Position numbers and translations under genes: made by a program
Origin: a virus
Virus record (IMG/VR): IMGVR_UViG_3300017773_000040
Coordinates: 1-37,531 of that record
Length of the DNA: 37,531 nt
Reading direction: 5' to 3' (one strand)
Shown here: positions 23,218 through 37,531 of the stretch, one piece after another
Numbering within the stretch: position 1 is the first letter of the stretch
Layout: each line of letters begins with the position of its first letter
Notes under the pieces: model-generated
The model's database searches: none
What the model was told of the DNA's origin: nothing
Seen by the model: the letters and a program-made list of their open reading frames with translations, nothing else

Positions 23218-23658
23218 ATGTCTATACCAAAACTAAAAGATTTACTAAACGAAAGAGACTACCATTTAACAAAACCACCGAGAAATGTTGCTGGGGTAGC
23301 AGTTATATCTGAAGGTCAAGTTCTTTGTGTAAAGCGTTCAGAGACTCAAGGTAAGTTTCCAAACTTTTGGTCACTTCCAATGGGTGGTGTTGAAAAGGGA
23401 GAGACTTTTGAAGAAGCTGGTGCTCGTGAATTAAAAGAAGAAACAATGCTTGACATTAACCCTAAAGATTTAGTATATTTAGGTACGATAAAAGACGGAG
23501 TGCATAATCGTCTATGTAAAGTTTATAAAGCAGAGATGGATGGTAAACCTGAACCTACATTAGACCACGAACATACTGATTGGGGTTACTATGATAAAGA
23601 TAGTTTACCAAGACCTTTTGAAGATAGAATGAGACAAGTGTTGGAATTAAACTTATGA
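23218..23658 (+). CDS. Nudix hydrolase
   Basis: A nucleoside-diphosphate-linked hydrolase (146 aa). The Nudix box is at residues 56-78 (GGVEKGETFEEAGARELKEE, then TML), matching Gx5Ex7REUxEExGU except that the final Gly is Met77. The substrate cannot be read from the sequence; ADP-ribose, NADH, Ap4A or capped RNA ends are possible. Residues 1-12 (MSIPKLKDLLNE) resemble the starts of two other proteins here and a T4-type capsid-targeting peptide (see findings). A strong aggag site precedes the ATG. It overlaps the next gene by 4 nt (ATGA). That neighbour is an NMN-adenylyltransferase-like enzyme, and the pairing recalls NadM-Nudix fusions known in other phages and bacteria, which supports an NAD/ADP-ribose substrate. 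Confidence 0.88.
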   Translation: MSIPKLKDLLNERDYHLTKPPRNVAGVAVISEGQVLCVKRSETQGKFPNFWSLPMGGVEKGETFEEAGARELKEETMLDINPKDLVYLGTIKDGVHNRLCKVYKAEMDGKPEPTLDHEHTDWGYYDKDSLPRPFEDRMRQVLELNL

Positions 23659-26408
23659 GTTTAAAAAAGTTAGTAGAAGAAATAACCAAACCCGTTATTG
23701 ATGAGATGGGAATAGTTGCTGGTGATGGAACTATCAAAGGTGGTTCTAAACTTTCTAAGATAAAGAAGATGAAAAAGAAAGGACACACTTCAGTTCCTTA
23801 TGGTAGTGGTTACAAAAAAGTAGATGAAGCACAAGCTGTAAAAGGTAGTAAAGTAGAAAAGTTTATTACAGGTCACAATCTTACTATGAAGGGTAAGAAA
23901 TATAAAGAAATAGAATTTGAGACATTAGGTGTTGATAATAGTTCAAAGATGGTTAATCTAAAAATATTAAAACCAAAAAACTTATTTGGTATGAAGACAC
24001 CTGTAAAATTCCAAACATTAAGAAGAGGACCTTTTACAAAAACTGATACTAGTAAAAAATTAAAAGAACAAAAACAAATCAAAAAAACTATCGGTGTATT
24101 CGGTGGTAGATTTCAACCATTTCATTCAGGTCATCTTGCTACATATAAGTGGTTGTCCAAACAAGTTGATGAAGCTTACATAACCACATCTAATATTAAG
24201 AAACCACCAAGACACCCTATGAACTTCAAAGAGAAAGTTCGTCATATGGTAAAGGTGGGTATTCCTAAGAATCGTATCATTGAAGAAAAGACACCTTATG
24301 TGGCAACTAACTTACTTAAAAAGTTTGATTCTGAAACCACGGCAGTAGTTTATGCTTTCGGTCAAAAAGATGCTGGTCGTTTAAAAGCTGGAACTAAAAA
24401 GGGTGGTGGTAAAACTTATTATCAAGATTACAAAAAAAGTAAAGGTGATATACGAGGATTTGAAGAACATGGATATTTTGTTACTGCTCCACAATTTGGA
24501 AATATAAGTGGAACAAAAACAAGAGATATGTTGGGAAATCCAAAAGTAGATGATAAAGAAAAATTAAAGTTTTTCAAAAAAACATTTGGATATTACGATA
24601 AAGGTTTGTATAATATGATGACGAATAAGTTTAGAAAGTTATACGAAGTTTATCTTGGATTATTAGAAAGTACAAGCACCCAATCTGATGGAGTAGATGA
24701 TGGTCCTGGTTTTTTATCAAGTTTAAAATCTTACTTACTTAGGGGTGAAAAAGAAGCTGGTAGATTAGGTTGGGAGATTGCTAAAAACATAATTGATGAT
24801 GAAAACTATTATAGTCAAGAATTTGACATTCCAAAATACCCAAACGGCCCAATAGGTTCAGTATCATACGGACCTGCTGGAGTAGCTGAGCCAAGTGCAG
24901 CTAATGATATGGATTTAGTTGGAAGTAAATTATGGAATCATTGGTTAGACCATATTGATATGATTTTAAAAAATCAAGATTATGAATATACAGACAAACT
25001 AAAAAAATCAAGAAAGTCAGTTATTAAACATAGTAAAAATACATTAAATCAATTAGAAAAAGAAGAGCCAACTAATACAGATCAAGATAGAGGAAATGAA
25101 CAACATGATGAATATGATATAGTAAAAGAGGTTTATTCACTTACAAGTAATTTAGAAAAAAATGGAAAGGAGTTATTATTAATGGGAGGAGCTTACGGAC
25201 ACATGAGTCATCCTTTTGATGACAAGGATTTAACATTCGGTGATTTGAAAAAAATCATCACATTAGGATTGAGTGGTCAATTAAACAGAGAAGACAATGT
25301 TACTGAAAAAACAGACGGACAAAACCTAATGGTGAGTTTTAAAAATGGTAAATTAATTGCTGCTCGTAACAAAGGACATTTGAAAAACAAAGGTGAAACA
25401 GCTTTAACTATTAAAGATGTTGAGAAAAAATTTAAAGGACGAGGAGCAATCAGAGATGCTTTTGTTTACGCCATGAGGGATTTGACAAAGGCAATCGGTG
25501 CTCTTTCTAAAAAACAACAAGACAAGATATTTGGTAATGGTAGTAAGTTCATGAGTTTAGAAGTCATGTGGCCTGCTAGTGAGAATGTCGTAAACTATGA
25601 TATTACAGAATTGGTTTTTCATGGGGCGATGGAATATGATGATAGTGGTAGGGTAATAGGACAAGCAAAGGATAGTGCTAGAATGCTACAAGGTATGATA
25701 AAACAAGTCAATCAACACATTCAAAAACACTACAAGATATCAAAACCAAACTTTGTCAATGTTCCAAAACATCAAGACTTTGGGAAAATGAAAAAGAAAT
25801 ACATTGGTAGATTACAAAAATTACAAAACATATATTCGTTAAAAGACAATGACACCTTTGCACTATATCATCAGATGTATTGGCAAGAATTTATTTTTAA
25901 TGCAAGTAAACAATTTAAATTTAAAATCACAAATGAAATGTTGGTTAAGTTAACTAAACGATGGGCATTTTTTGACAAATCATATACTATACCTATGATG
26001 AAAAAAGATATGAAAGACAATCCAAAGTTTTTAGATTGGGCATTGACCACCGATAAGATTGATAAAAACAGAATGGTCAAGGATAACATGAAACCATTTG
26101 AAGAATTATTCTTTGAGGTCGGTGCTGAGATAATGAAAAACATGGATGGTTGGATGGCTGTTAATCCAGCAAAGTCAGTACAGAATATGAGAAAGAAACT
26201 CAAGAAAGCAGTTTCGGATGTGAGAGCTGGTGGTGATTTGAAAAAATTAAACAGATTAAAGGTTCAGTTAGATAGATTAAATGCTATCGGTGGATTTGAT
26301 TCTATTGTTCCATCAGAGGGAATCGTGTTTAAGTATAATGGAAACACATATAAGTTCACAGGTGCATTTGCTCCTATAAATCAAATAACAGGTTTGATGT
26401 TTTTTTAA
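23655..26408 (+). CDS. Fusion of NMN-adenylyltransferase-like and KxDG ligase-like domains (917 aa)
   Basis: N-terminal segment MSLKKLVEEI plus a Lys-rich linker (1-145). Then an HxGH nucleotidyltransferase: GVFGGRFQPFHSGH ends at 160 and ISGTKTR is at 284-290, the two signatures of the NMN/pantetheine adenylyltransferase superfamily. Residues about 335-530 are unassigned. A covalent nucleotidyltransferase (DNA/RNA ligase-like) domain follows: motif I KTDG at 552-555 (Lys552 the expected AMP-carrying residue), an RNKG segment at 571-574, a motif III-like FMSLEVMWP with Glu636, and motif IV EGIVFK at 888-893 with YKFTG just after. A helical stretch of about 200 residues (690-880) separates motifs III and IV, much longer than usual. 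Coupled to the Nudix gene by ATGA. Possible roles: NAD synthesis plus strand sealing. Ligase activity and substrate (DNA or RNA) are unproven. Confidence 0.8.
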   Translation: MSLKKLVEEITKPVIDEMGIVAGDGTIKGGSKLSKIKKMKKKGHTSVPYGSGYKKVDEAQAVKGSKVEKFITGHNLTMKGKKYKEIEFETLGVDNSSKMVNLKILKPKNLFGMKTPVKFQTLRRGPFTKTDTSKKLKEQKQIKKTIGVFGGRFQPFHSGHLATYKWLSKQVDEAYITTSNIKKPPRHPMNFKEKVRHMVKVGIPKNRIIEEKTPYVATNLLKKFDSETTAVVYAFGQKDAGRLKAGTKKGGGKTYYQDYKKSKGDIRGFEEHGYFVTAPQFGNISGTKTRDMLGNPKVDDKEKLKFFKKTFGYYDKGLYNMMTNKFRKLYEVYLGLLESTSTQSDGVDDGPGFLSSLKSYLLRGEKEAGRLGWEIAKNIIDDENYYSQEFDIPKYPNGPIGSVSYGPAGVAEPSAANDMDLVGSKLWNHWLDHIDMILKNQDYEYTDKLKKSRKSVIKHSKNTLNQLEKEEPTNTDQDRGNEQHDEYDIVKEVYSLTSNLEKNGKELLLMGGAYGHMSHPFDDKDLTFGDLKKIITLGLSGQLNREDNVTEKTDGQNLMVSFKNGKLIAARNKGHLKNKGETALTIKDVEKKFKGRGAIRDAFVYAMRDLTKAIGALSKKQQDKIFGNGSKFMSLEVMWPASENVVNYDITELVFHGAMEYDDSGRVIGQAKDSARMLQGMIKQVNQHIQKHYKISKPNFVNVPKHQDFGKMKKKYIGRLQKLQNIYSLKDNDTFALYHQMYWQEFIFNASKQFKFKITNEMLVKLTKRWAFFDKSYTIPMMKKDMKDNPKFLDWALTTDKIDKNRMVKDNMKPFEELFFEVGAEIMKNMDGWMAVNPAKSVQNMRKKLKKAVSDVRAGGDLKKLNRLKVQLDRLNAIGGFDSIVPSEGIVFKYNGNTYKFTGAFAPINQITGLMFF

Positions 26409-26423
26409 AATAGAGGTTATACT

Positions 26424-26900
26424 ATGGGTAGAAATATAGAGAAAGTAAAAAAGTTAATAGCTGGTGTTGGTGGTAAAGGAACTCCACGAATTGGATATAC
26501 AGGAAAAACTATTGAAATGAGAAAAGAGGGTGAGGTTTGGGAAGAGGCAAGTGGTAGAAAATTTACTAAAGTAGATGGTAAAAGAAAACAAATTACTAAG
26601 ATACCACCAAAAGGATTTGACAAATGTGATGATTGTGAAAAACTAATCCTTAAAACTATTGACCAACAAACTTATAATAGATTTAAAAAGTGTAAGTATT
26701 GTCAGATAGATTTTGAGATGAAATTAAAAAGAGAAGGTAAGTGGGAAGATTGGGTAAAAGAAATGGAAGAAAAAAGATGGGAAAAGGTTCTTGCTGAGTA
26801 TGAATCCGAAATGATGGGAATAAAAGATGCGGATAGTCCGTTTGATGAAACAGTAGCAAAAGCTATTGGAAATCACGAACAAAATCAAAGTAAAATATGA
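26424..26900 (+). CDS. Zinc-ribbon protein just upstream of terminase (158 aa)
   Basis: The protein has two CxxC pairs, Cys68/Cys71 (CDDC) and Cys90/Cys93 (CKYC), a likely zinc ribbon. A basic, Gly-containing N-terminus (KKLIAGVGGKGTPRIGYTGK) precedes it and a long charged helix (about 95-140, rich in E, K and W) follows. It occupies the position of the small terminase subunit (T4 gp16) directly before the large subunit, overlapping it by 4 nt (ATGA). A DNA-binding packaging role is therefore possible, but the sequence shows no clear gp16-type signature and phage zinc ribbons have many roles. gaggt precedes the ATG. Confidence 0.7.
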   Translation: MGRNIEKVKKLIAGVGGKGTPRIGYTGKTIEMRKEGEVWEEASGRKFTKVDGKRKQITKIPPKGFDKCDDCEKLILKTIDQQTYNRFKKCKYCQIDFEMKLKREGKWEDWVKEMEEKRWEKVLAEYESEMMGIKDADSPFDETVAKAIGNHEQNQSKI

Positions 26901-28480
26901 GTAACTTAAAACAAGCAATAAAACAAAACTATTTAAAGTGTGCTAAAGATCCTTCATACTTTATAAACGAGTTTTGTGTTATACAACATCCTCAAAGGGG
27001 TAAGATAAAATTTAAACTTTATCCATATCAGTTTGATGTATTAAAAGAGTATGAAAACCATGACTATAATGTTGTATTAAAATCTCGTCAATTAGGTATA
27101 TCTACTTTAACGGCTGCTTATTCACTTTGGATGATGTTATTTCACGCTGATAAAAATATTTTATGTATTGCTACAGCAAAAGATACTGCTAAAAACTTGG
27201 TAACTAAAGTTCGTATTATGTACGAAGGATTGCCACAATGGTTGAAAACTGCCATTGTCGAAAATAATAAACTTTCACTTATCTTTAAAAATGGTTCACA
27301 GATAAAAGCTATTGCTTCTAATGAATCTGCTGGTCGTTCTGAGGCACTATCTCTACTAATCTTAGACGAGGCTGCTTTCATCGACAAGATTGATACCATA
27401 TGGACTGCTGCTCAACAGACATTGGCTACTGGTGGACAATGTATTGGTATATCAACTCCAAATGGTGTAGGAAATTGGTTTCATAAAACTTGGATGGATG
27501 CTACTGATGGTCTTAATAAATTTAATACTATTAAACTTCATTGGACAGATCATCCAGAAAGAGATCAAAATTGGAGAACAGAACAAGATAGAATATTAGG
27601 TCCAAGTAAGGCTGCTCAAGAATGTGATGCTGACTTTTTAAGTTCTGGTCGTTCTGTTGTAGATCCTGCTATTTTAGAATGGTATAAAGAAAAGATGTGT
27701 TGTGAACCAAATGAAAAAAGTGGATTTGATAGAAACCTTTGGATATGGGATTATCCAAATTATGATAAGAATTATTTAATAAGTGCTGATGTAGCTCGTG
27801 GGGATGGAACAGACTATTCAACTGCTCAAGTATTTGATATAGAAGAGATGGAACAAGTAGCAGAATACAAAGGTCAGCTAGGAACAACCGAGTTTGGAAA
27901 CTTTTTAATTGAATTAGCTACAAAATATAACGATGCTCTACTTGTTGTGGAAAATAACAACATAGGGTGGGCAACTTTACAAACTATCATTGATAGAGGA
28001 TATGAAAATCTCTTTTATCAAGAAAAAAATCATCTCATCGTGGATGAGGACATTCAGCATACAAACAAATATAGAAGTATAGATAGAAACAAGATACCAG
28101 GTTTTACTACAACAATGAAATCAAAACCATTAATTATTGCTAAGATGGAAGAATATACTAGAGAAAAGATGGTAAAGATAAAATCAACACGATTAATTGA
28201 TGAACTTTTTGTATTTATATATAAGAATAGTAAAACTGAAGCATTAGATGGATATAATGATGACCTTGTTATGTCGTATTCTATTTTGTTATGGATTAGA
28301 GATACTGCGATTCGTATTCAATCGGAAAGAAACGAATTTCAAAGTAGTTTAGTTGGTGCAATTGGAAACCTAAATGGTAATACAACTGTAATGACACCAA
28401 ATAGTGTTCCAAAAAATAATCCATATAAAGTAAAAATTAATGAAAATGAAGAAGAAGATTTAACTTGGCTATTGGGGTAA
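26897..28480 (+). CDS. Terminase large subunit (T4 gp17-like)
   Basis: The DNA-packaging motor ATPase and headful nuclease that docks on the portal. ATPase domain: Walker A-type SRQLGIST at 63-70, Walker B LLILDEAA with Asp157/Glu158, and coupling motif STPNG at 186-190. RNase H-like nuclease domain: Asp298 in SADVARGDG, Glu352 in VVENNN and Asp455/Asp456 in YNDDL, the expected acidic triad. Length 527 aa is somewhat shorter than T4 gp17 (about 610). The Walker A lysine seen in T4 (SRQLGKT) is replaced by Ile, while Lys62 lies just before the motif. It is followed by the portal after 3 nt. Confidence 0.95.
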   Translation: MSNLKQAIKQNYLKCAKDPSYFINEFCVIQHPQRGKIKFKLYPYQFDVLKEYENHDYNVVLKSRQLGISTLTAAYSLWMMLFHADKNILCIATAKDTAKNLVTKVRIMYEGLPQWLKTAIVENNKLSLIFKNGSQIKAIASNESAGRSEALSLLILDEAAFIDKIDTIWTAAQQTLATGGQCIGISTPNGVGNWFHKTWMDATDGLNKFNTIKLHWTDHPERDQNWRTEQDRILGPSKAAQECDADFLSSGRSVVDPAILEWYKEKMCCEPNEKSGFDRNLWIWDYPNYDKNYLISADVARGDGTDYSTAQVFDIEEMEQVAEYKGQLGTTEFGNFLIELATKYNDALLVVENNNIGWATLQTIIDRGYENLFYQEKNHLIVDEDIQHTNKYRSIDRNKIPGFTTTMKSKPLIIAKMEEYTREKMVKIKSTRLIDELFVFIYKNSKTEALDGYNDDLVMSYSILLWIRDTAIRIQSERNEFQSSLVGAIGNLNGNTTVMTPNSVPKNNPYKVKINENEEEDLTWLLG

Positions 28481-28483
28481 AAC

Positions 28484-30247
28484 ATGGCAGACAATTTATT
28501 TACAAGACTTGGTAGATTATTTCAATCTAATGTAATAATTAGAAAGACAGATGATAATCGTTTAGTGGTAAAGGATTTAGACTTTACACAAACAAGTTTA
28601 CAATCAAATTTTATAGATCGATATCAGAGGTTGATACAAAATACATATTCAAATCCATATTCGGTTGCTCAAAACAGACGAGCTGCTTATGAGATAAGAA
28701 AACATGATTTATTTAGAGATTATGAGTTAATGGATCAAGACCCGATTATTGCTTCTGCTCTTGACATATATTCAGACGAAAGTACGGTTACAAATATTGA
28801 GGGTGAAATTTTAAAAGTAAAAAGTGAAAATACAAAAGTACAAAAGATTTTACATAATTTATTTTACGATGTTTTAAACATAGAATTTAATTTGTGGAGT
28901 TGGATTCGTAATATGACAAAGTATGGTGATTTTTATTTACAATTAGATATTGTGGATAAATTTGGAGTAGTAAATGTAAAACCTGTTTCTGCTTATGACA
29001 TTACAAGATTAGAAGACCATGATCCTGCTAATCCACAATTAATTCAATTTGAGATAAATAGTGAAAAAAAAGAAATGAAAGAAAACTATGAAGTTGCTCA
29101 CTTTCGTGTTTTATCCGACACAAACTTTTTACCATATGGGCGCTCAATGTTAGAGAACGGAAGAAAGATATTCAAACAATTGACTTTGATGGAAGACGCT
29201 ATGTTGATACACCGTATTATGAGAGCGCCTGAAAAACGAATCTTTAAGATTGATGTTGGAAATATACCACCAAGAGAAGTTGAACAATTTATGCAAAAAA
29301 TCATTAATAAGATGAAGAAGACTCCTGTGATTGACCAAGCTACTGGTGAATATAATTTAAAATATAATGTGGAATCTGTAACTGAAGATTACTTTCTACC
29401 TGTACGAGGTGGAGATAGTGGAACTGAAATAGATACTTTACCTGGCTTGTCCAACAATGACCAAATAGACGACATAGAATATCTACGAAACAAACTTATG
29501 GCATCCTTGAGAATACCAAAGGCTTTCTTAGGATATGAAGAAGGTTTAAGTGGTGGTAAAGCTACACTTGCTGCTGAAGATGTTCGTTTTGCTCGTACAA
29601 TTGAAAGGTTACAAAAGATTATTGTTAGTGAATTAACTAAAATTGGTATTGTACACCTTTACTCACAAGGATTTAATGATTCTGATTTAATTGATTTTCA
29701 GTTAGAGTTACAGAATCCATCAATGATTCATGAGCAAGAAAAATTAGAATTGATGAGTCAACAACTTGATATTGCTGAAAAAGCTATAGATTCAAAGTTG
29801 TTTAGTCGTAAGTGGATATATGACAATGTTTTTGATTTAAGTGACCAGCAAAAACTTGATATTTACGAAGCTATAGTAGAAGATACTAAACAAAAATTTC
29901 GTTTAGAGCAAATAGAAACAGAAGGAAGTGATCCTGCTAAAGAACCACCACCAAGTGAAGATGAAGATGACGATGATAATTTTGAAGTAAGCAGAAAAGG
30001 TAAATGGGGTGGAAGTGAAAAAGATCCTTTTAAAGACCAAGAAGATATGAAAGATAAATATGGACATGAAAGTCTAAAAGATGTCGATAGATCATATGGA
30101 AAAAGGGAATTTAAAGGTAAATCACCTCTTGCCACATCAAAAGCTAGTACAGTTGTTGCTCGTGAAGGTATATTAGATCAACTTAAAGAAAAGTTTCCTA
30201 AAGACAAATCTTCTATGTTGAGTGAAGATAATATAATAAAAGAGTAA
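28484..30247 (+). CDS. Portal protein (T4 gp20-like)
   Basis: The dodecameric ring at the head vertex through which DNA enters and leaves. The region around residues 62-105 (YEIRKHDLFRDYELMDQDPI, ASALDIYSDEST) and the later SGGKATLAAEDVRFARTIERLQ (about 355-377) are typical of T4-type portals. 587 aa is close to the usual 520-560. The last 100 residues are acidic then basic (EPPPSEDEDDDDNFEV, SRKGKWGGSEKD) and probably disordered, an extension beyond the core. Placed right after terminase, as in T4-type genomes apart from the missing sheath and tube genes. A 69-bp gap with a promoter-like motif follows. Confidence 0.93.
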   Translation: MADNLFTRLGRLFQSNVIIRKTDDNRLVVKDLDFTQTSLQSNFIDRYQRLIQNTYSNPYSVAQNRRAAYEIRKHDLFRDYELMDQDPIIASALDIYSDESTVTNIEGEILKVKSENTKVQKILHNLFYDVLNIEFNLWSWIRNMTKYGDFYLQLDIVDKFGVVNVKPVSAYDITRLEDHDPANPQLIQFEINSEKKEMKENYEVAHFRVLSDTNFLPYGRSMLENGRKIFKQLTLMEDAMLIHRIMRAPEKRIFKIDVGNIPPREVEQFMQKIINKMKKTPVIDQATGEYNLKYNVESVTEDYFLPVRGGDSGTEIDTLPGLSNNDQIDDIEYLRNKLMASLRIPKAFLGYEEGLSGGKATLAAEDVRFARTIERLQKIIVSELTKIGIVHLYSQGFNDSDLIDFQLELQNPSMIHEQEKLELMSQQLDIAEKAIDSKLFSRKWIYDNVFDLSDQQKLDIYEAIVEDTKQKFRLEQIETEGSDPAKEPPPSEDEDDDDNFEVSRKGKWGGSEKDPFKDQEDMKDKYGHESLKDVDRSYGKREFKGKSPLATSKASTVVAREGILDQLKEKFPKDKSSMLSEDNIIKE

Positions 30248-30270
30248 TTTACCACTTTATCTAAATTCTG

Positions 30271-30292
30271 TTATATTTATATATGAATAATT
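30271..30292 (+). promoter_or_regulatory. Putative phage promoter motif, exact copy of 8504-8525
   Basis: Twenty-two bases identical to those at 8504-8525, in the 69-bp gap between the portal gene and the gene at 30317. The TATTTATA core is 35 nt before that start codon. Exact repetition in two unrelated intergenic gaps 22 kb apart, inside a genome with almost no spacer DNA, argues for function; a promoter is most likely. Confidence 0.45.
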
Positions 30293-30316
30293 GTATCAAA
30301 ATCTTTGGAATAATAT

Positions 30317-31162
30317 ATGAGCAAATTTAAGCATAGTAAACTAAGAAATACGGGATTACTCTTTGAGTTCCTTTTAAGACAAGTCACCGTAGATGTTTTG
30401 AACAAGAAAAAGGAATCACCAGCTCTTAAAATTATTAAAAGTCAATTTAATGAACACACCGAGTTAGGTAAGGAGTTGGCTTTATATAATCTTATCATGA
30501 CAAAGAAATTTAAATCAGATAAGAAAGCAGATTTCTTTTTATCAGAAGTGATTAGACAAAGGGGGAAGTTAAATAACATGAATCTTCGTAGAGAGAAGTA
30601 TAATGTTATTGCTACTATAAAAGAGTCTTATGATGTAAATCAGTTGTTTAGTTCCAAAGTTCCAAATTATAAAACCTTTGCTTCTGTATATAAGTTGTTT
30701 GAGGGTATAAACGAAATGGGTGCTGACGAAAAAACAGAAAGTTATTTTATAATAATTGAAAATGTAACAACTTTAAAACACACAAAAAATAAATCTTATA
30801 TACCTGAAGAGTTTAAAGATAAAGATTTAAGAATACTTTCTTATAAAACACTTTTGGAAAAGTTCAATAAAAAATATACTAATCTTTCTGATCAACAAAA
30901 GAAAGTTCTTAAAGAGTACATTAGTAATATTTCTAATACAAACAACTTTTCTATATTTGTAGAAACTCAAATACCAAAACTTAAAAGAAAGTTGAATGGT
31001 AAAGTTAAGAAAGTAAAAGATAAAGTATTAAAAATTAAATTACAAGAAGCAATTAATTGTGTTGATAAATTTTGCTTAAATGAATCAAAACAAACAGATG
31101 ATAATTCTGTTATACAATTGTTGAGATATTATGAACTCGATAAAGAACTCGACAAAGTTTGA
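30317..31162 (+). CDS. Unknown 281-aa protein in the gp67/gp68 position
   Basis: I do not recognise a family. It is basic and largely helical (LRNTGLLFEFLLRQVTVDVL at 10-29, KLKRKLNGKVKKVKDKVLKI about 223-242), with no membrane segment. It sits between portal and prohead protease, where T4 encodes the small head-core proteins gp67 and gp68, so a scaffold or head-core role is reasonable by position. It is the first gene after the exact-repeat promoter motif. Its last 32 nt overlap the next gene in another frame. Confidence 0.7.
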   Translation: MSKFKHSKLRNTGLLFEFLLRQVTVDVLNKKKESPALKIIKSQFNEHTELGKELALYNLIMTKKFKSDKKADFFLSEVIRQRGKLNNMNLRREKYNVIATIKESYDVNQLFSSKVPNYKTFASVYKLFEGINEMGADEKTESYFIIIENVTTLKHTKNKSYIPEEFKDKDLRILSYKTLLEKFNKKYTNLSDQQKKVLKEYISNISNTNNFSIFVETQIPKLKRKLNGKVKKVKDKVLKIKLQEAINCVDKFCLNESKQTDDNSVIQLLRYYELDKELDKV

Positions 31163-31442
31163 TTCCATAGTTAAGGAACTTGCAAGTAGTTTATTTCGTA
31201 ATAAATTAAAAGAAATAACTACAACAGCAAGTATAGACACTTATCAGACTCCTTATGCTTTTAGTAAAAAAGGAATGAAAAAGAAGAGGAAGAAAAATAT
31301 TGAAAAACAAACTGGATATAAGTTTGTCGATGAGGCTTTATCCAATGATGATTTAAAAAAGATAAAGAAAGAAATAAGAAAAGAAGTATCCGATATCTTA
31401 TTTGATATTTGGGTAAAACGAAGCTCTTGGGGGGGTAAATAA
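31131..31442 (+). CDS. Small basic head-region protein (103 aa)
   Basis: A short, very basic protein (KKGMKKKRKKNIEKQTGYKF at about 44-63, IKKIKKEIRKEV-like stretch near 80) with helical ends. The start at 31131 lies inside the previous gene, a 32-nt overlap longer than others here; a later start would lose the N-terminal helix KFDSIVKELASSLF, and there is no better-placed ATG. It ends directly before the next ATG. Possible head-core or DNA-binding role by position; no family recognised. Confidence 0.6.
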   Translation: MNSIKNSTKFDSIVKELASSLFRNKLKEITTTASIDTYQTPYAFSKKGMKKKRKKNIEKQTGYKFVDEALSNDDLKKIKKEIRKEVSDILFDIWVKRSSWGGK

Positions 31443-31760
31443 ATGTCAAGATATCAAGCAGATCCTAATAATTCAAAAAAAATGATACCAAAGGCTGTTC
31501 CAACTAGTGCTTTTGGAAAAGCTACCACTCCGGCTCCTTATCCTGCTAGACATGAAAGACCTAATTACATTTTAATTAATAAAGTGGGAAATTATTCTTT
31601 TGCATATGAATCAGGAAGTCTTAACAGTTATGTAAGTGGCTCACAAGTAACTAATGCTGCTGCTGGTCCAGTTAGATTGGATATTAATCCAATTGCTTGG
31701 GTAAGTAAAAATGGTGCTGCTGGTGATGTAACTTTTGTATACACAGGAAACATAGGGTAA
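31443..31760 (+). CDS. Small beta-rich head-region protein (105 aa)
   Basis: It begins MSRYQADPNNSKKMIPKAVP and a Pro-rich stretch, then a beta-type C-terminal half (YILINKVGNYSFAYESG, VRLDINPIAWV, DVTFVYTGNIG). No membrane segment or catalytic motif. It lies immediately upstream of the prohead protease and might be a head decoration or core protein, but this is only positional. It starts at the base after the previous stop. Confidence 0.6.
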   Translation: MSRYQADPNNSKKMIPKAVPTSAFGKATTPAPYPARHERPNYILINKVGNYSFAYESGSLNSYVSGSQVTNAAAGPVRLDINPIAWVSKNGAAGDVTFVYTGNIG

Positions 31761-31764
31761 AAAA

Positions 31765-32367
31765 ATGAATAAAAAATTATTAGTAGATGTAAGACCATTT
31801 GAAATATCTCGTCAGAAAATTGATGAGAGTATTAAAGAAAATGATGGTCGTTTAATAGTAAAGGGTGTCCTACAGAGAGCCGAATCTAAAAATCAAAATG
31901 GTAGAGTTTACCCACGAGAAGTATTATTGAAAGAAGTTTCTAAATATTTAGAAGAACAAGTTAGTGAGAGACGAGCACTCGGAGAACTCGACCATCCAGA
32001 ATCATCTGTAGTTAATTTGAACAATGCGTCACATAATGTTATTGAAATGCATTGGGATGGCGATGACCTTTTAGGAACTGTAGAAGTTCTATCCACACCA
32101 AGTGGGAACATATTGAAAGAATTATTTAAATCAGGTATCAAACTTGGTATTTCATCAAGAGGATTGGGTTCGGTAGAACCGATGAGAGAATCTGAAGGTG
32201 AGGATGGAACTGTTGAGGTTCAACCTGACTTTGAACTTATTGCATTTGATTTCGTATCAAATCCATCTACACATGGTGCTTTCATGAGACCTGTTAACGA
32301 AGGTGTAGAAAAACAAAAACCTGAAACAAGAATCGAATCTATTATTAACTCTATAATGAGGGGATAA
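31765..32367 (+). CDS. Prohead core protease (T4 gp21-like)
   Basis: A serine protease that matures the head by cutting scaffold and targeting peptides, in T4 after (L/I)xE. Seen here: ELDHPESS with His77, and KLGISSRGLGSV with Ser130/Ser131, the conserved His- and Ser-bearing segments of the gp21/herpesvirus assemblin-like family, followed by FELIAFDFVSNPSTHGAFM. At 200 aa it is close to the T4 length (about 212). It lies after the portal as in T4. Its presence is important for the targeting-peptide idea about the Nudix, ligase and small proteins nearby. Confidence 0.93.
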   Translation: MNKKLLVDVRPFEISRQKIDESIKENDGRLIVKGVLQRAESKNQNGRVYPREVLLKEVSKYLEEQVSERRALGELDHPESSVVNLNNASHNVIEMHWDGDDLLGTVEVLSTPSGNILKELFKSGIKLGISSRGLGSVEPMRESEGEDGTVEVQPDFELIAFDFVSNPSTHGAFMRPVNEGVEKQKPETRIESIINSIMRG

Positions 32368-32368
32368 T

Positions 32369-34024
32369 ATGCCTTCGGTTTCCAAGAAACAACAAAAGTT
32401 TATGGGAATAGTTCGGTCAATCCAAAAGGGTGAACAACCCGCAAGTAAATTTTCCAAAGATGCTCAAGATGCTGCTAAGAAGATGAAGAAGAGTAGCGTA
32501 AAGAAATATGCTAAAACCAAACACGATGACTTACCTATCAAAAAAGAATCCTTATCAAAATCACAGATTAAAAAAATGAGAGATGAATTTGATAAAACCG
32601 GCGAACTACCACCTCATTTAAAAAAGATATCAAAAGCTAAAAAAGAATTTGAGAAAAAATTTAAAGTAAAGGATGTTGAAATACCTGGTTTAGAATGGAT
32701 GAGTAAGTTAGGTGAGGCTGCTGATAGAGATTATAAAGCAGAATACAAAAAATTTCAATCATCAACAAAAGCTAAAAAATACAGAGCTGAGTTGAATAAA
32801 TATAACCGACAAAAAGGCACTTATGGGAATGGTGATGGTAAAGATGCTTCTCATAAGGGAGGAAAAATCGTGGGGTTTGAAAAAGAGTCAACAAACAGAG
32901 GACGAGCTGAAAAGAGTCGTTTGAAAAAAGAAGATGCCCAACAAGAAATAGATGAGTATCTTGATAATATTTTAGAAGATTTATGTTTATGTGAAGCTTG
33001 TCAAAAAGGATATATGACACATCCTACTCGTAAAACAAAAACTATGTTTGGTAAAAGATACAGAAATTGTGTTAAGAAAGAATCTGTAAATGAACAATCT
33101 AAAACAATTAAAAAAATTGAAAAGTTAGCAAAAGCAAATAAGTATGGAGATATCGATGGAACAAAAATGAATGGTAAAACTGCTAATTTAATTATGAAAA
33201 TTTACAATCATCCAAAGATGAAGAGTTATAAAAAGAAATTCGATACATATAAATCACACGAGTTGGTTGATATGACTATTAACATGTCAAAGATTTTGAA
33301 GATAAAAGAAGCAGATTTAGGACTCACATATAAAAGAGGTAAAACAGTAAAAGTCAAACATAAGAAATCCGGTAAAACACTTGTCATTGTAGATAAACCA
33401 GTCGTAAGAAAAGAATATGAAAAAATAGGATATTTTGCTGAGTCCGTAAATGAAAAAGTAGATTCTGAAATGAAGAAGATATATCAACTTCTTATCAAGT
33501 ATGGAAATAATGCAAAAGATGCTGCGGCTATGATTAAAAAGAATTTAAAGTATGTAAACAAAACATACAGAAATTCAACTCCGAGAGGTAAGGCTGTAGC
33601 ACTTGTAGGACTTCAAAGTTTAGGTGAGGGAACCTGTGGATACGGTATAGATGGAAAGATTGGTGAAGAACCAGCAGGTCCTAACTTGATAAAGAAAATC
33701 AAAAAAATATCGAAATCAAAAATAAAAGATGAAAAAATTAAATTAAAAAGTAAATCAGGTATGGGTACTATAAGTCATGTTGGTATGCCAAAAGCATCAA
33801 AGGGTGTTGAAAAATTATTTAAGATTGCTGATAGTGGATATGGTAAAGTAGGTGGAGTAACTGTTGATAGTATGTCTGCTAATCTATTTAAACAAATTTA
33901 CAACAAAGCAAATGATGATATCAAAAAAAAATTAAATACAAAGAATGAGAAACAATTAGTAAAAATTCTTGGTGGAATGTGGAAAAAATTTGGAAAAAAT
34001 GTTAGTATAGGGAGTAGTTTATAA
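32369..34024 (+). CDS. Lysine-rich multidomain head-region protein (551 aa)
   Basis: It sits directly after the protease, where T4 encodes scaffold gp22. Domains in order: MPSVSKKQQKFMGIVRSIQKG (1-50, like DUF3008-type proteins); a segment at about 115-185 containing RQKGTYGNGDGKDASHKGG and STNRGRAEKSR, which looks like a degraded or HNH-like fold; CEACQKGYMTHPTRKTK and a later Cys (about 209-233), possibly metal-binding; then two related domains, about 245-310 (GTKMNGKTANLIMKIYN) and 477-548 (GVTVDSMSANLFKQIYN). The linkers ESVNE occur at 238-242 and 358-362. Very Lys-rich. It may be a core protein or polyprotein cut by the protease. Domain limits are visible; function is inferred. Confidence 0.7.
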   Translation: MPSVSKKQQKFMGIVRSIQKGEQPASKFSKDAQDAAKKMKKSSVKKYAKTKHDDLPIKKESLSKSQIKKMRDEFDKTGELPPHLKKISKAKKEFEKKFKVKDVEIPGLEWMSKLGEAADRDYKAEYKKFQSSTKAKKYRAELNKYNRQKGTYGNGDGKDASHKGGKIVGFEKESTNRGRAEKSRLKKEDAQQEIDEYLDNILEDLCLCEACQKGYMTHPTRKTKTMFGKRYRNCVKKESVNEQSKTIKKIEKLAKANKYGDIDGTKMNGKTANLIMKIYNHPKMKSYKKKFDTYKSHELVDMTINMSKILKIKEADLGLTYKRGKTVKVKHKKSGKTLVIVDKPVVRKEYEKIGYFAESVNEKVDSEMKKIYQLLIKYGNNAKDAAAMIKKNLKYVNKTYRNSTPRGKAVALVGLQSLGEGTCGYGIDGKIGEEPAGPNLIKKIKKISKSKIKDEKIKLKSKSGMGTISHVGMPKASKGVEKLFKIADSGYGKVGGVTVDSMSANLFKQIYNKANDDIKKKLNTKNEKQLVKILGGMWKKFGKNVSIGSSL

Positions 34025-34350
34025 TGGCTGAACTAAAGAAAAGTAATTTAGATACACCTGAAATGCATGTTCAGGATCAAAAACACGAAATCAACACAGA
34101 GTTGATTGGAATAATAAAATTTAGACAAAACAAAAAATGGTTAATCAGCATAGCTGTTGTATCATTATTTTCTGCTATATTAGGACTTATGATTTGGTTT
34201 ATGAGTAGTGGTGTTGATGTCATGGGTGGTTGGAAGGAGATTCTACTACTGATGTTAGGTGGATTCGTAGGTTCGTTTGCCAAAGTCATTGACTTTTGGT
34301 TCAACAACGCTGAAGATGATGTTAAACTATTAGAACACGCGGATGATTAA
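34024..34350 (+). CDS. Two-helix membrane protein, possible second holin component (108 aa)
   Basis: Residues about 39-60 (WLISIAVVSLFSAILGLMIW) and 68-88 (WKEILLLMLGGFVGSFAKVI) are hydrophobic membrane segments separated by a short Met/Ser/Gly loop. Both ends are charged and hydrophilic (N-terminus about 38 residues, C-terminus FNNAEDDVKLLEHADD), so both likely face the cytoplasm. It lies just before the 3TM-family holin gene, so an antiholin or accessory lysis role is plausible, but a structural membrane role cannot be excluded. It overlaps the previous stop by 1 nt (TAATG). Confidence 0.65.
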   Translation: MAELKKSNLDTPEMHVQDQKHEINTELIGIIKFRQNKKWLISIAVVSLFSAILGLMIWFMSSGVDVMGGWKEILLLMLGGFVGSFAKVIDFWFNNAEDDVKLLEHADD

Positions 34351-34361
34351 GGGGTAAGGTT

Positions 34362-34775
34362 ATGAGTTTTTTAGCAACATTAGGAAAAGCCGCTGGTAGT
34401 TTACTTGGTGGTGATGCAATTAAAGACATCGGAAATATTGTAGATGATTTACATACTTCAGGTGAAGAGAAAGCAGAAGCTAAACAAAAGATTACACAGA
34501 TATTAGCACAAGCCGAACAAGCGGCTCAAGCTCAAGTATCTGCTCGTTGGGAAGCTGATTTAAAACATGGTAGTTGGTTAAGTAAAAATATTAGACCAAT
34601 TACATTAATCTTCCTTACTGGTGTATTTGTAATACTAAGTGTATTTGATGGCAACATGGGTGAGTTCACAATTGGTGAAGCTTATGTTCCAGTTTATCAA
34701 ACTCTATTGATGACTGTATATGCGGCTTATTTTGCTGGTCGTTCAATTGAAAAAGTAAAGAAGGTAACTAAGTAG
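34362..34775 (+). CDS. Holin of the 3TM family (137 aa)
   Basis: The sequence ARWEADLKHGSWLSKNIRPITLIF (about 61-84) and the closing VYAAYFAGRSIEKVKKV are characteristic of the 3TM holin family first noted in gene-transfer agents. The N-terminus is amphipathic (FLATLGKAAGSLLGG); an Ala/Gln-rich helix (about 30-60) leads to hydrophobic segments at about 78-97 and 108-130. It would form membrane holes releasing the GH108 lysozyme (22699). It is translated together with the next gene, whose GTG start overlaps this stop by 1 nt. A ggggtaagg ribosome-binding region precedes the ATG. Confidence 0.8.
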   Translation: MSFLATLGKAAGSLLGGDAIKDIGNIVDDLHTSGEEKAEAKQKITQILAQAEQAAQAQVSARWEADLKHGSWLSKNIRPITLIFLTGVFVILSVFDGNMGEFTIGEAYVPVYQTLLMTVYAAYFAGRSIEKVKKVTK

Positions 34776-35011
34776 TGGCATATAGAGTATTAATGGAAGT
34801 AGTTCCAAGACCCGATGACACCGAAGAGTGGATTTGGAATGAAACAAATGCTAATAGTGTTTCTTCTACTGGTGGAAAGGGTTGGACTGCTAAACTTAAC
34901 TCAAGTGATTCTGTTTGGGAATATTCCACTCAAAGTGATGCTAATGTAAAAATGAATGAATTATTTGAAGCCGACTCAACTAACAGACGATATAAAATTA
35001 TAGAGGTATAA
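34775..35011 (+). CDS. Small protein with GTG start (78 aa)
   Basis: The GTG overlaps the holin TAG by 1 nt (TAGTG), the same coupling seen elsewhere in the window, which supports this start over the internal ATG seven codons later. The protein begins VAYRVLMEVVPRPDDTEEW and has Trp at several places (EWIWNET, GWTAKL, VWEYST). It looks like a small beta-sheet domain. I recognise no family. It could belong to the lysis cluster or be a small virion protein. Confidence 0.6.
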   Translation: MAYRVLMEVVPRPDDTEEWIWNETNANSVSSTGGKGWTAKLNSSDSVWEYSTQSDANVKMNELFEADSTNRRYKIIEV

Positions 35012-35012
35012 A

Positions 35013-35246
35013 ATGATTAAATTAAAAGATTTTTTAAATGAAGGGATTCCAAACTATTTTAGAGGATATTTTGATAATGTAAATAATAATCTTGATAGAC
35101 TAGAAAAAAATGTTAAACTATTGATAAAAGATTTGGGAAAAGATGGTTTAAAAAAAGAGTCATTAGAAGTTGCTTCTCTTTATAAAAAACACATAATAGA
35201 GTTTAAAGTTAAACTCAAAAACTTTGAGAAGAAAAATCGTGATTAA
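35013..35246 (+). CDS. Small helical protein with KLKDFLNE start (77 aa)
   Basis: It begins MIKLKDFLNEGIPNYF; the first ten residues are nearly the same as the start of the next gene and close to that of the Nudix protein. In T4 such a leader (MKTYQEFIAE) targets internal proteins to the head and is cut by gp21 after (L/I)xE; LNE-Gly would fit. The rest is a charged helical protein (LDRLEKNVKLLIKDLGKDGL, LKKFEKKNRD-like end), the size expected of a small internal protein. A gaggt site precedes the start. Packaging is inference. Confidence 0.65.
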   Translation: MIKLKDFLNEGIPNYFRGYFDNVNNNLDRLEKNVKLLIKDLGKDGLKKESLEVASLYKKHIIEFKVKLKNFEKKNRD

Positions 35247-35541
35247 GTTAAAAGAATTATTAAATGAAAAAACTGTATCAATGGGACAAGTTCATTCTAA
35301 CCCATATGCTTCATCGTTTAAGTCACCTAAACAAATAGAAGAAGATGGACATACTGATGTTCCATCTGCTATAAGAAAATTAAAAACATCTATTGAAGAT
35401 GCCAACGAAATAATGGATAAACTCAATAGTATGTCAGAAGAAGAATCATTACCAAGTTGGTGGACAGATAAAATAACTCTTTCTGCTAATTACTTAAACA
35501 AAGCTAGAGATTACATATTAAACTCAAAGGAAACCAAATAA
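35239..35541 (+). CDS. Small protein with KLKELLNE start (100 aa)
   Basis: I place the start at GTG 35239 rather than TTG 35224, because it gives (M)IKLKELLNE, matching MIKLKDFLNE of the upstream gene; the overlap is then 8 nt. After the leader comes a segment GHTDVPSAIRKLKTSIEDAN and a closing ESLPSWWTDKITLSANYLNK, which I associate loosely with conserved hypothetical proteins of T4-like marine phages. A related GHTSVPYGSGYKKV string occurs in the N-terminal linker of the ligase fusion. Possible head-internal protein; function unknown. Confidence 0.65.
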   Translation: MIKLKELLNEKTVSMGQVHSNPYASSFKSPKQIEEDGHTDVPSAIRKLKTSIEDANEIMDKLNSMSEEESLPSWWTDKITLSANYLNKARDYILNSKETK

Positions 35542-35557: not shown

Positions 35558-36550
35558 ATGAAAGACCAAATTACATATAACGGAAAAAAATACCAACGAG
35601 TAAATGAAGCTAGTATGGAACTCAAAAAATTAGAAGATGCTATTAAGATGTTTCAAAAGAAAATTAAGAAACAAGGTAGAGTTACTAATGCTAGAGATGA
35701 AGACCACCTTGAAAATCTAATAAAGATTTATAAACAAATGGGTGGTAAAAAAATAAAAGAATCTGTAAGTGAAAATCTTGATAGAAGAGTAACTGTAAAA
35801 GAAGTTCGCTCTTGGTTAAAAAAATTAGAAGAGTTTCGTTATAGAAAAATAAGAAATGTTGATGCTAGAAGAGTTACTTCTTTTATCAATAGTAATTTAA
35901 GTGAAACAGATTTACCTAATTCTTTACAGAAGAAATGGGAACATGCCAAATACGGTAGAGAAAAACATTTGGCAGACAAATTCATCAAAGAAAAAATTAG
36001 TCAGAAGTGGAGCGAGATTGCTCAAAATGAGGGTGTTGAAATGAAAAATATTAGTTTATTAGGAATAGTAGAAGACCTTGTGCCAGTTAAGGAACGAGAG
36101 CAAGGGGTAAACAAGTTCGAGGTCATTGAGGCTGTAAAAAACTATCAGATGATAGGTGGACAACTTTTCAAAGACAATGGTATTATCGAAGTTGCTAAAC
36201 AACTTGTCGGTATTGCTGAATCTGCTCAAAATCATGTTTTAAGTGAAACTGATGATTGGTTTGATTCTGTTTCTGTAAAAAGAAATATGAAGGAATTAAA
36301 AGGTTTAACGGGTCAATTTAAAAAAGCTGCTCTTGAAGCCAATGCCGTAAACGAAAGATTAAATGCTCTATATGAGGATATGGGAAATATTTTAAATAGA
36401 TACTATGACATTGAAGAAGCTATGGATCCTGTTGGTAAAGAGGATGGTGATATAGATAATGACGGTGATAAAGATGATAGTGATGAGTATCTAGCAAAAC
36501 GCCGTAAAGCTATTTCTAAGGCAATAAAAAAACAAAATGGAGATAAGTAG
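35558..36550 (+). CDS. Helical protein with EF-hand-like Ca-binding loop (330 aa)
   Basis: A mostly helical charged protein. It starts MKDQITYNGKKYQRVNEASM; an ESVSE segment at 68-72 resembles the ESVNE linkers of the 551-aa protein. Near the C-terminus (about 292-315) lies DGDIDNDGDKDDSDEYLAKR, a DxDxDGDxxDSD loop like EF-hand or dockerin calcium sites, which also occurs in scaffold-type proteins of T4-like marine phages as I recall. This might be the functional counterpart of a head-core scaffold. No ribosome-binding site is obvious. It overlaps the next gene by 14 nt. Confidence 0.65.
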   Translation: MKDQITYNGKKYQRVNEASMELKKLEDAIKMFQKKIKKQGRVTNARDEDHLENLIKIYKQMGGKKIKESVSENLDRRVTVKEVRSWLKKLEEFRYRKIRNVDARRVTSFINSNLSETDLPNSLQKKWEHAKYGREKHLADKFIKEKISQKWSEIAQNEGVEMKNISLLGIVEDLVPVKEREQGVNKFEVIEAVKNYQMIGGQLFKDNGIIEVAKQLVGIAESAQNHVLSETDDWFDSVSVKRNMKELKGLTGQFKKAALEANAVNERLNALYEDMGNILNRYYDIEEAMDPVGKEDGDIDNDGDKDDSDEYLAKRRKAISKAIKKQNGDK

Positions 36551-36847: not shown

Positions 36848-37531
36848 ATGGCAAAAGGTTTAGATTGTGGTACATCATTCTATATTGCTGCTACAGAAGA
36901 GCTAGTTAAAAAACAAAGAAATGCATTCTTAACTGTCGATGGGGAGGTGAACCAAGTCAAGAGAATGTTAAAACGGCAAGGAATTCCCTTTGTCGAAAAA
37001 GCTAGTAAGGTTCATATAGTTGGACAACACGCTTTCAATTATGCTCAAATATTCTCTACAGCAGAACTTAAAAGACCAATGAAAAGTGGTCTATTAAATC
37101 CTACAGAGAAAGATGCTCTACCAGTTCTAAACGCAATAATCGGAGAGTTGTTGGGTGATGCTAAAGATGGAGAAACTTGTGTTTATTGCATTCCATCTAA
37201 ACCTATCGATGTCGAAAGGGAAGTATCATATCACGAAGATGTGTTGAGAACGATAATAGAACAATACGGATACAATGTGAAAAAGATAGAGGAGGCAGTT
37301 GCGATTGGATATGAAGGATTGGTTGATACTCAGCTAACTGGTGTAGCCATCTCGATGGGTGCTGGTATGTGTAACATAGCAGTTATGTATCAAGGGATGA
37401 CTGCCCTATCTTTTAGTGTCAGTCGTGGTGGAGATTGGGTAGATGAAAATGTTTCTATGGACACAGGAGTATCAAAAGCTAAGGTAACTAATATTAAAGA
37501 AACATCAACTACACTTGATTTATCTGCTGCT
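36848..37531 (+). CDS. Actin/MreB-like protein, 3' end outside window
   Basis: The frame stays open for 228 codons to the window edge. The order of motifs follows actin/MreB proteins: phosphate-1 loop GLDCGTS at 4-10; a KRPMKSGLLNPTEKDA segment (compare MreB RPxxDGVI); VYCIPSKPIDVEREV (compare VPxxxTxVERRA); KKIEEAVAIGYEG (compare EPxAAAIG); then the phosphate-2 position SMGAGMCNIAVM and SRGGDWVDENV (compare GGDxxDE). The phosphate-2 segment lacks the usual Asp (DIGGGT), so nucleotide hydrolysis may be altered. The adenosine motif would be downstream. A filament role in DNA positioning or head assembly is inference. agaggt precedes the ATG; the gene starts 2 nt after the membrane protein. Confidence 0.75.
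   Translation, partial: MAKGLDCGTSFYIAATEELVKKQRNAFLTVDGEVNQVKRMLKRQGIPFVEKASKVHIVGQHAFNYAQIFSTAELKRPMKSGLLNPTEKDALPVLNAIIGELLGDAKDGETCVYCIPSKPIDVEREVSYHEDVLRTIIEQYGYNVKKIEEAVAIGYEGLVDTQLTGVAISMGAGMCNIAVMYQGMTALSFSVSRGGDWVDENVSMDTGVSKAKVTNIKETSTTLDLSAA

Follow-up and report, generated by a model that had tools for sequence, protein, structure and literature searches.

A putative T4-type capsid-targeting leader shared by diverse enzymes of a marine T4-like phage group

Results

A shared leader peptide in the window

This work concerns a leader peptide encoded in the virus record IMGVR_UViG_3300017773_000040, from an ocean virus of bacteria, which we refer to over its whole length of 37,531 bases as the window. 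The leader stands at the N-terminus of otherwise unrelated proteins and is in our assessment (probability of approximately 0.8) a T4-type capsid-targeting sequence of a marine T4-like phage group. Its virions probably bring ready-made enzymes into the host together with the DNA; for this phage, we infer from evidence that is indirect and converges that leader proteins are packaged, cut and injected. At the level of sequence, a T4-type leader with diverse enzyme cargo is supported, and its broad expansion is the new aspect. The leaders and their carriers in the window are as follows.

23218..23253, plus strand: leader MSIPKLKDLLNE of the Nudix protein, capsid-targeting-like, from the peptide scan
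23218..23658, plus strand: Nudix hydrolase of 146 amino acids (aa), predicted head cargo (Pfam NUDIX, residues 22-143, E 1.7e-19)
23655..23705, plus strand: leader MSLKKLVEEITKPVIDE of a 917-aa fusion protein, a long variant of 17 residues; a P-loop kinase domain lies directly behind it in relatives
23655..26408, plus strand: the 917-aa fusion, predicted multi-module head cargo, with an NMNAT-like domain (Pfam, residues 148-232) and KTDG (residues 552-555) in the C-terminal part
35013..35042, plus strand: leader MIKLKDFLNE of a 77-aa protein (35013-35246), from the open reading frame (ORF) and the peptide scan
35239..35268, plus strand: leader MIKLKELLNE of a 100-aa protein (35239-35541), with a GTG start at 35239

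The consensus M-x-K-L-K-[DE]-[LF]-L-x-E forms the start of the Nudix protein and of the two small proteins, and the near-identity of these three starts, pointed out in a first-pass annotation of the window, was confirmed: the degenerate peptide occurs three times in the window and the reversed pattern not at all. Both 10-residue leaders carry L4, L7 or F7, L8 and E10, and the Nudix leader, which lies outside the NUDIX domain, is shifted by two. The longest ORF of the 100-aa protein opens instead at TTG 35224. The same annotation had seen a looser version, LKKLVEE, in the fusion; a related start is indeed present there, but it had been drawn too short and is better taken as 17 residues ending in I-D-E, because relatives place another domain directly behind it (...ITKPILQE/GVNDPGILK, slash at the joint).

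Match with the T4 capsid-targeting sequence

The internal head proteins of T4 begin with the leader MKTYQEFIAE. Like the leader of T4 IPI, IPII, IPIII and Alt, the one described here is N-terminal, spans 10 residues with hydrophobic positions 4, 7 and 8 and Glu10, and ends in L/I-x-E; in both systems the carriers have diverged mature parts, a gp21-family protease is encoded and at least one cargo is an enzyme (Alt in T4). The first-pass annotation had read the window's leaders as a T4-type capsid-targeting sequence, and at the sequence level this reading held for position, length, hydrophobic residues, Glu10, L-x-E ending, unrelated carriers and protease. The differences lie in the letters (MIKLKDLLNE here, MKTYQEFIAE in T4) and in the dozens of cargo families, the several enzymes, the long variants and the predicted inter-module sites found here.

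For T4 (published sources are cited throughout from excerpts), it has been reported that a 10-residue N-terminal piece of IPIII is enough for packaging, that residues 4 and 7 serve targeting and residues 8 and 10 processing, that gp21 cleaves after L/I-x-E, and that Asp at position 10 blocks cutting and leaves targeting unaffected (PMC9026906). The idea that such a sequence lets T4-like phages package various proteins is also already in print (PMC9026906).

The window encodes the corresponding head proteins, and the gp21-like protease assigned at 31765 in the first-pass annotation proved to be a clear Peptidase_S77 member.

28484..30247, plus strand: T4-type portal protein, gp20-like (PF07230, E 5.4e-77)
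31765..32367, plus strand: prohead protease, gp21-like, Peptidase_S77 (PF03420, E 2.9e-31; phrog_207, E 5.8e-56)

Judged by the protease, the closest named relatives are the Microcystis phage Mel-JY01 (58%) and the Flavobacterium phages immuto (52%); no paper with the word immuto was among the matches listed. In immuto, the protein at 24977-25402 begins with MIKLIDLLTE, and a further stretch, MGNLADLLLE, is found close to the beginning of the NT5C protein. Of the exact-leader records, the first 50 were searched for head genes: Peptidase_S77 was found in 26, the T4 portal in 23, gp23 in 20 and any of the three in 31, and a phrog_207 search added one protease fragment among the 24 records without Peptidase_S77. 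Each of eight larger leader records contains homologues of immuto or Mel-JY01 proteins, G018 with only weak portal/protease matches. In the gp23 of relatives, the motif NQA-x-[QE]-L-[ILV]-x-E is present in all 43 IMG/VR hits that reach the region, in 14 distinct forms, the next residue being A, N, S, T or F; two further hits are fragments. It reads QIVSE/A in immuto and QLISE/A in Mel-JY01, with other forms in S-SSM7 and Melnitz, and we take it, by analogy with T4, to be the gp23 maturation site.

The leader is enriched at protein starts

These data raise an important question: could the common start be a product of chance, or the generic amphipathic beginning of proteins in an AT-rich phage? 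The residues K, L, E and N are abundant in AT-rich genomes, and the loose ending [LIVMF]xE is frequent (1.8% of positions). The leader search in relatives, suggested in the first-pass annotation, was controlled with other peptides, all leader patterns having been written after the window and T4 tags had been seen. The pattern M-x-K-[LF]-K-[DE]-[LF]-[LF]-N-E matched at least 120 stretches in IMG/VR, against none for a permuted peptide of identical residues and six for another K/E/L-rich peptide; carriers in relatives are far more numerous than the window alone could show. Among 122 pattern matches, 119 lie at most 40 codons from the preceding stop, and 103 have no upstream start codon. In a set of 1,287 ORFs from 156 loci, from which copies identical at residues 13-42 had been removed, so that homologues remain, the strict leader stands at 92 N-termini, compared with a mean of 0.68 when N-termini were shuffled (maximum 3, 50 rounds); internally, it occurs 39 times in 245,340 positions. 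The broader motif is found at 132 N-termini against 12.1 expected from shuffles. Chance or composition, rejected on the two control peptides and the shuffles, is an extremely improbable explanation.

A second explanation is that gene shuffling left the common start behind, for example as a 5' end used for recombination, or that the 5' DNA matters for translation, the peptide having no role in sorting. Leaders are indeed swapped between cargoes and can stand in tandem (record G016), but the 45 copies of MIKLKDLLNE are encoded by 37 different DNA sequences, which indicates that the peptide is kept and not the DNA; on this codon variety, a DNA-level element was rejected. Moreover, a distant cyanophage version keeps the pattern and not the letters (MKxFxxFLxE) and marks virion proteins in S-CREM2. 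We regard this explanation as very unlikely.

Diversity of the leader-bearing proteins

From the window and the fetched IMG/VR loci, we collected 319 different leader sequences with a minimum length of 45 aa, among them the window's own and, for some proteins, alternative starts and truncated copies; shorter ORFs and those beginning more than 40 codons after a stop were excluded. BLASTP (1e-4) on the part behind the leader sorted them into 82 families, 56 of them singletons. A 10-residue leader with L/F at position 4, L/I/F/M at 7, L/I/F/V/M at 8 and E at 10 characterizes 75 of the 82, although the search pattern itself required part of these residues. When representatives of 68 of the 82 families were aligned, the leader, with the consensus MIKLKDLLxE, was the sole conserved block of the alignment; behind it, agreement was limited to a few scattered letters.

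At most 25 of these 68 representatives have a Pfam match at E 0.01. The matches include NUDIX, ART-PolyVal (4.2e-12), AAA_33/Zeta_toxin, GNAT, HD, Mom, GP88, DUF6267 and Fe/Mn superoxide dismutase (1.3e-33). In two superoxide dismutases, L056 (12711-13376) and L184 (14331-14966), full-length enzyme models align from residues 16-20 onward, with scores that exceed the Pfam cut-offs and fall short of the NCBIfam equivalog cut-offs; this indicates that the leader was added onto a complete enzyme. With complete Fe/Mn superoxide dismutases behind the leader, a phage head may carry an oxidative-stress enzyme. In record G016 (L313-L314), 11 leader genes are clustered at 14.6-24.8 kb; most belong to one family, leucine-rich by eye, and one is a KptA/ADP-ribosyltransferase (ART)-like candidate with a weak Pfam match, so that the group is possibly an expanded payload cluster.

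Leaders on replication proteins, which the first-pass annotation had considered damaging to its proposal, were looked for in two records: the replication and nucleotide genes located by tblastn, eight in G026 and four in G037, were not among the leader ORFs of those records. The RecA proteins of S-SCSM1 and S-SZBM1 fit the loose motif, which we take as chance.

Identity of the window's enzymes

The Nudix domain is clear (70.6 bits vs a curated cut-off of 21.1). For the fusion, the first half of the first-pass name adenylyltransferase-ligase agrees with a nucleotidyltransferase domain (CTP_transf_like, 35.5 bits vs a cut-off of 21), and the ligase part depends on the conserved KTDG motif only. 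The NMNAT equivalog models remain far below their cut-offs. A profile of 24 relatives gave weak matches in the PDB, exclusively to NMN adenylyltransferases/NadM (10 sequences, best E 2.3e-4), and NadM structures were also the top fold matches (E 3e-4) of a poor AlphaFold2 model (pLDDT 56.6). K552, D554 and G555 are conserved in at least 90% of 24 sequences. KxDG is a motif of the nucleic-acid ligase superfamily; no ligase was present among the fusion's family matches or the listed fold and structure matches, and, because of the poor model, the KTDG part is left unnamed. In NadM, NMNAT and Nudix are combined in one protein, and here they are encoded side by side. Their role could, as a guess, be to counter host NAD depletion or ADP-ribose signals. 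Packaging of phage Nudix and ART proteins was predicted earlier (PMC9503650).

Leaders in the virion proteomes of T4-like cyanophages

One additional line of evidence comes from published virion proteomes. In S-CREM2, 52 of 219 coding sequences (CDS) were detected in virions by mass spectrometry (PMC10665884), and four of the six non-structural virion enzymes carry such a leader, the two endolysins being without one. When Glu was limited to residue 10, a restriction that was chosen after the broader count given below and that corresponds to the length of the T4 and of two window tags, all five matching CDS are virion proteins (P 6.5e-4): an S-adenosylmethionine (SAM) hydrolase (MKDFDSFLEE), a kinase (VKRFDAFLTE), a cytidylyltransferase (MKNFSSFLTE) and two unnamed proteins (MKDLHSFLTE and MQTFSMFFSE). 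The virion Cas9 of S-CREM2 has PLRFASFMAE at residues 16-25. Similarly, the virion NMNAT of S-SCSM1 starts with MKSFLQFLKE, the virion cytidylyltransferase/NMNAT of S-SZBM1 with MRFRQFIIE, one residue shorter, and a kinase of S-CRM01, whose virion presence is taken from PMC10665884, with MISFDQFLSE. These four cyanophages thus resemble the window's phage in having NMNAT/cytidylyltransferases or kinases, in their case in virions, with leaders of the same spacing (MK-x-F-x-x-F-L-x-E and similar); the window's NMNAT-like fusion is a different and much longer protein. The excerpts covered of the cyanophage virion papers contain no mention of the leader, and none of the papers listed in searches of open-licence PMC connects a leader of the capsid-targeting kind with NMNAT or Nudix proteins of cyanophages.

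A second shared stretch, approximately LxxDGHG(G/S), was observed behind the leader on otherwise unrelated cyanophage proteins: S-CREM2 gp12 (L350), S-CRM01_128 (L362), the S-SCSM1 NMNAT (L352) and the P-SSM2 cytidyltransferase (L358), two of which are virion enzymes.

Several results weigh against a capsid-targeting role. None of the three T4 head genes was seen in 19 of the 50 leader records, many of which are short fragments, and in four of the 122 matches the frame that follows is shorter than 40 aa. Among 24 Nudix proteins listed, the window's included and one truncated at the N-terminus, 5 of the 23 with an N-terminus deviate from the tag: in four, LLE places the Glu one position closer to the N-terminus, and the leader of L214 contains none. 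Since Asp10 in T4 blocks cutting and not targeting, these exceptions may be uncut cargo. The authors of the S-CREM2 study considered the enzymes likely cargo and virion contamination possible (PMC10665884), and the broad motif (Glu at residues 9-12), from which the limit to residue 10 was subsequently drawn, fits eight S-CREM2 CDS, five of them in the virion (P 0.02). In S-SCSM1, where motif starts other than annotated CDS starts (13 of 16) were set aside by eye, the residue-10 motif stands on three annotated CDS, one of which is a virion protein (the NMNAT); gp30 (MKTFKQFMSE) is not marked as one, and RecA (MDFLKDVVKE) also fits. Over the 59 kb of S-SZBM1 that were compared, one of three leader proteins, RecA excluded, is in the virion list; proteins 191 and 192, with clear leaders, are absent from that list of 30. 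Finally, the virion presence of leader proteins in the window's phage and its near relatives is something we infer.

Predicted cleavage at the leader end and at module joints

Another important issue is whether the leader would be cut at all. It could instead be an uncut docking helix, or direct proteins to another part of the virion (portal, tail tube or neck), given that whole-virion mass spectrometry cannot separate head from tail, that some Nudix orthologues keep the hydrophobic pattern and lose or shift the Glu, and that the T4 Asp10 change stops cutting alone (PMC9026906). On the other side, none of the 75 families whose leader has 10 residues lacks Glu10, though the search pattern required it. 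A stronger argument comes from relatives, in which the P-loop kinase domain GVxDPGIFKAVFLAGGPGSGK follows MIKLKDLLNE, MSLKKLVEEITKPILQE, MNKLTEFLTKPFLEE and a number of stretches inside proteins: without exception, the 24 different sequences upstream of it, which are not all independent, end in [LIVMF]xE, an ending that the search did not require and that has a per-position background of 1.8%. The same kind of site is also kept in gp23. We therefore hold the docking alternative to be unlikely, and we favor a cleaved capsid-targeting sequence; the 24 contexts also indicate that the fusion leader, which would extend to residue 17, is the counterpart of the short one.

Similar endings recur inside the fusion, whose mosaic architecture is shown by module exchange among relatives.

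23820..23828, plus strand: predicted internal protease site VDE/A, fusion residue 58, a module joint in relatives
24060..24068, plus strand: predicted internal protease site LKE/Q, fusion residue 138, a joint just before the NMNAT-like domain

Behind SGYKKVxE (fusion residue 58), relatives have 28 continuations with different first eight residues, several being variants of one module, and 31 of 37 contexts at this joint read [LIVMF]xE, the Glu not being required by the search. More generally, at 234 of 589 points where homology between two proteins begins after unrelated sequence, each of the two has [LIVMF]xE at a distance of at most four residues, compared with 5.3% for random positions; the points (boundaries of high-scoring segment pairs) come from dereplicated pairs that are not independent, so the result is a strong enrichment and not a probability.

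The predicted gp21 sites at joints of interchangeable modules suggest an idea that is new here: the large fusions may be capsid polyproteins, in which one leader imports a string of enzymes and the prohead protease cuts at L/I/V-x-E joints. We advance this tentatively, at somewhat less than even odds. In the window, one late gene might then deliver an NMNAT-like enzyme, the KTDG part and small modules, and in relatives the cargo might include a zeta-toxin-like P-loop kinase. Module shuffling at protease sites would make the head cargo list freely editable by evolution. The competing explanation is that the joints are merely the places where shuffling does least harm.

The fusions resemble the polyvalent proteins described by Iyer et al. 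2017 (PMC5512222), multi-domain mosaics predicted to be packaged and injected. ART, kinase and GNAT domains are found repeatedly in both, and ART-PolyVal is matched by one leader protein. For polyvalent proteins, processing has been ascribed to built-in peptidase domains (PMC5512222), in contrast to the prohead-protease sites predicted here at the joints, and the family searches found no polyvalent-specific domain in the window's fusion.

Other observations in the window

The start of a 551-aa protein at 32369-32545 (VSKxQQ+FMGxV) resembles S-SCSM1_93, a virion protein, and S-SZBM1_194; its relative in L147 contains a P-loop kinase module. At 36434-36547, the C-terminal motif DIDNDGDKDDSDEYLxKRRKAI of a 330-aa protein is also present in P-RSM4_192 and, when aligned with the phrog_764 cytidyltransferase profile, falls close to the profile's N-terminal end. 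At 36848-37531, the protein cut off by the window end looks by eye like an actin-fold (ParM-like) ATPase; PHROGs gave no match.

Discussion

Leader proteins would be made late in infection. The leader would form a short helix whose hydrophobic residues 4, 7 and 8 bind the prohead scaffold core, and the gp21-family protease would then cut after L/I-x-E, at Glu10 or, in the longer forms, at Glu12 or approximately Glu17. Once freed, the enzymes would be retained in the head and pass into the next host along with the DNA. There, a function early in infection, connected with NAD/ADP-ribose or nucleotide metabolism, is conceivable. Because ten residues would suffice, the tag could stand on dozens of unrelated proteins, in the window the Nudix hydrolase, the NMNAT-like fusion and two small proteins. 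A comparable case is phage P1, where an N-terminal signal of DarB carries a reporter into the capsid; the P1 authors found no N-terminal sequence shared by the Dar proteins, and the P1 scaffold is not T4-like (PMC9024508).

If this is true, part of the injected protein payload of the ocean's T4-like phages would be readable from sequence, each tagged gene being a predicted head cargo. It would provide one reason for the presence of NMNAT, kinases, SAM hydrolase and even Cas9 in cyanophage virions, and it would add superoxide dismutase, ADP-ribosyltransferases and zeta-like kinases as unexpected payloads. The first minute of infection by such a phage would become testable protein by protein, and the leaders would offer new packaging tags.

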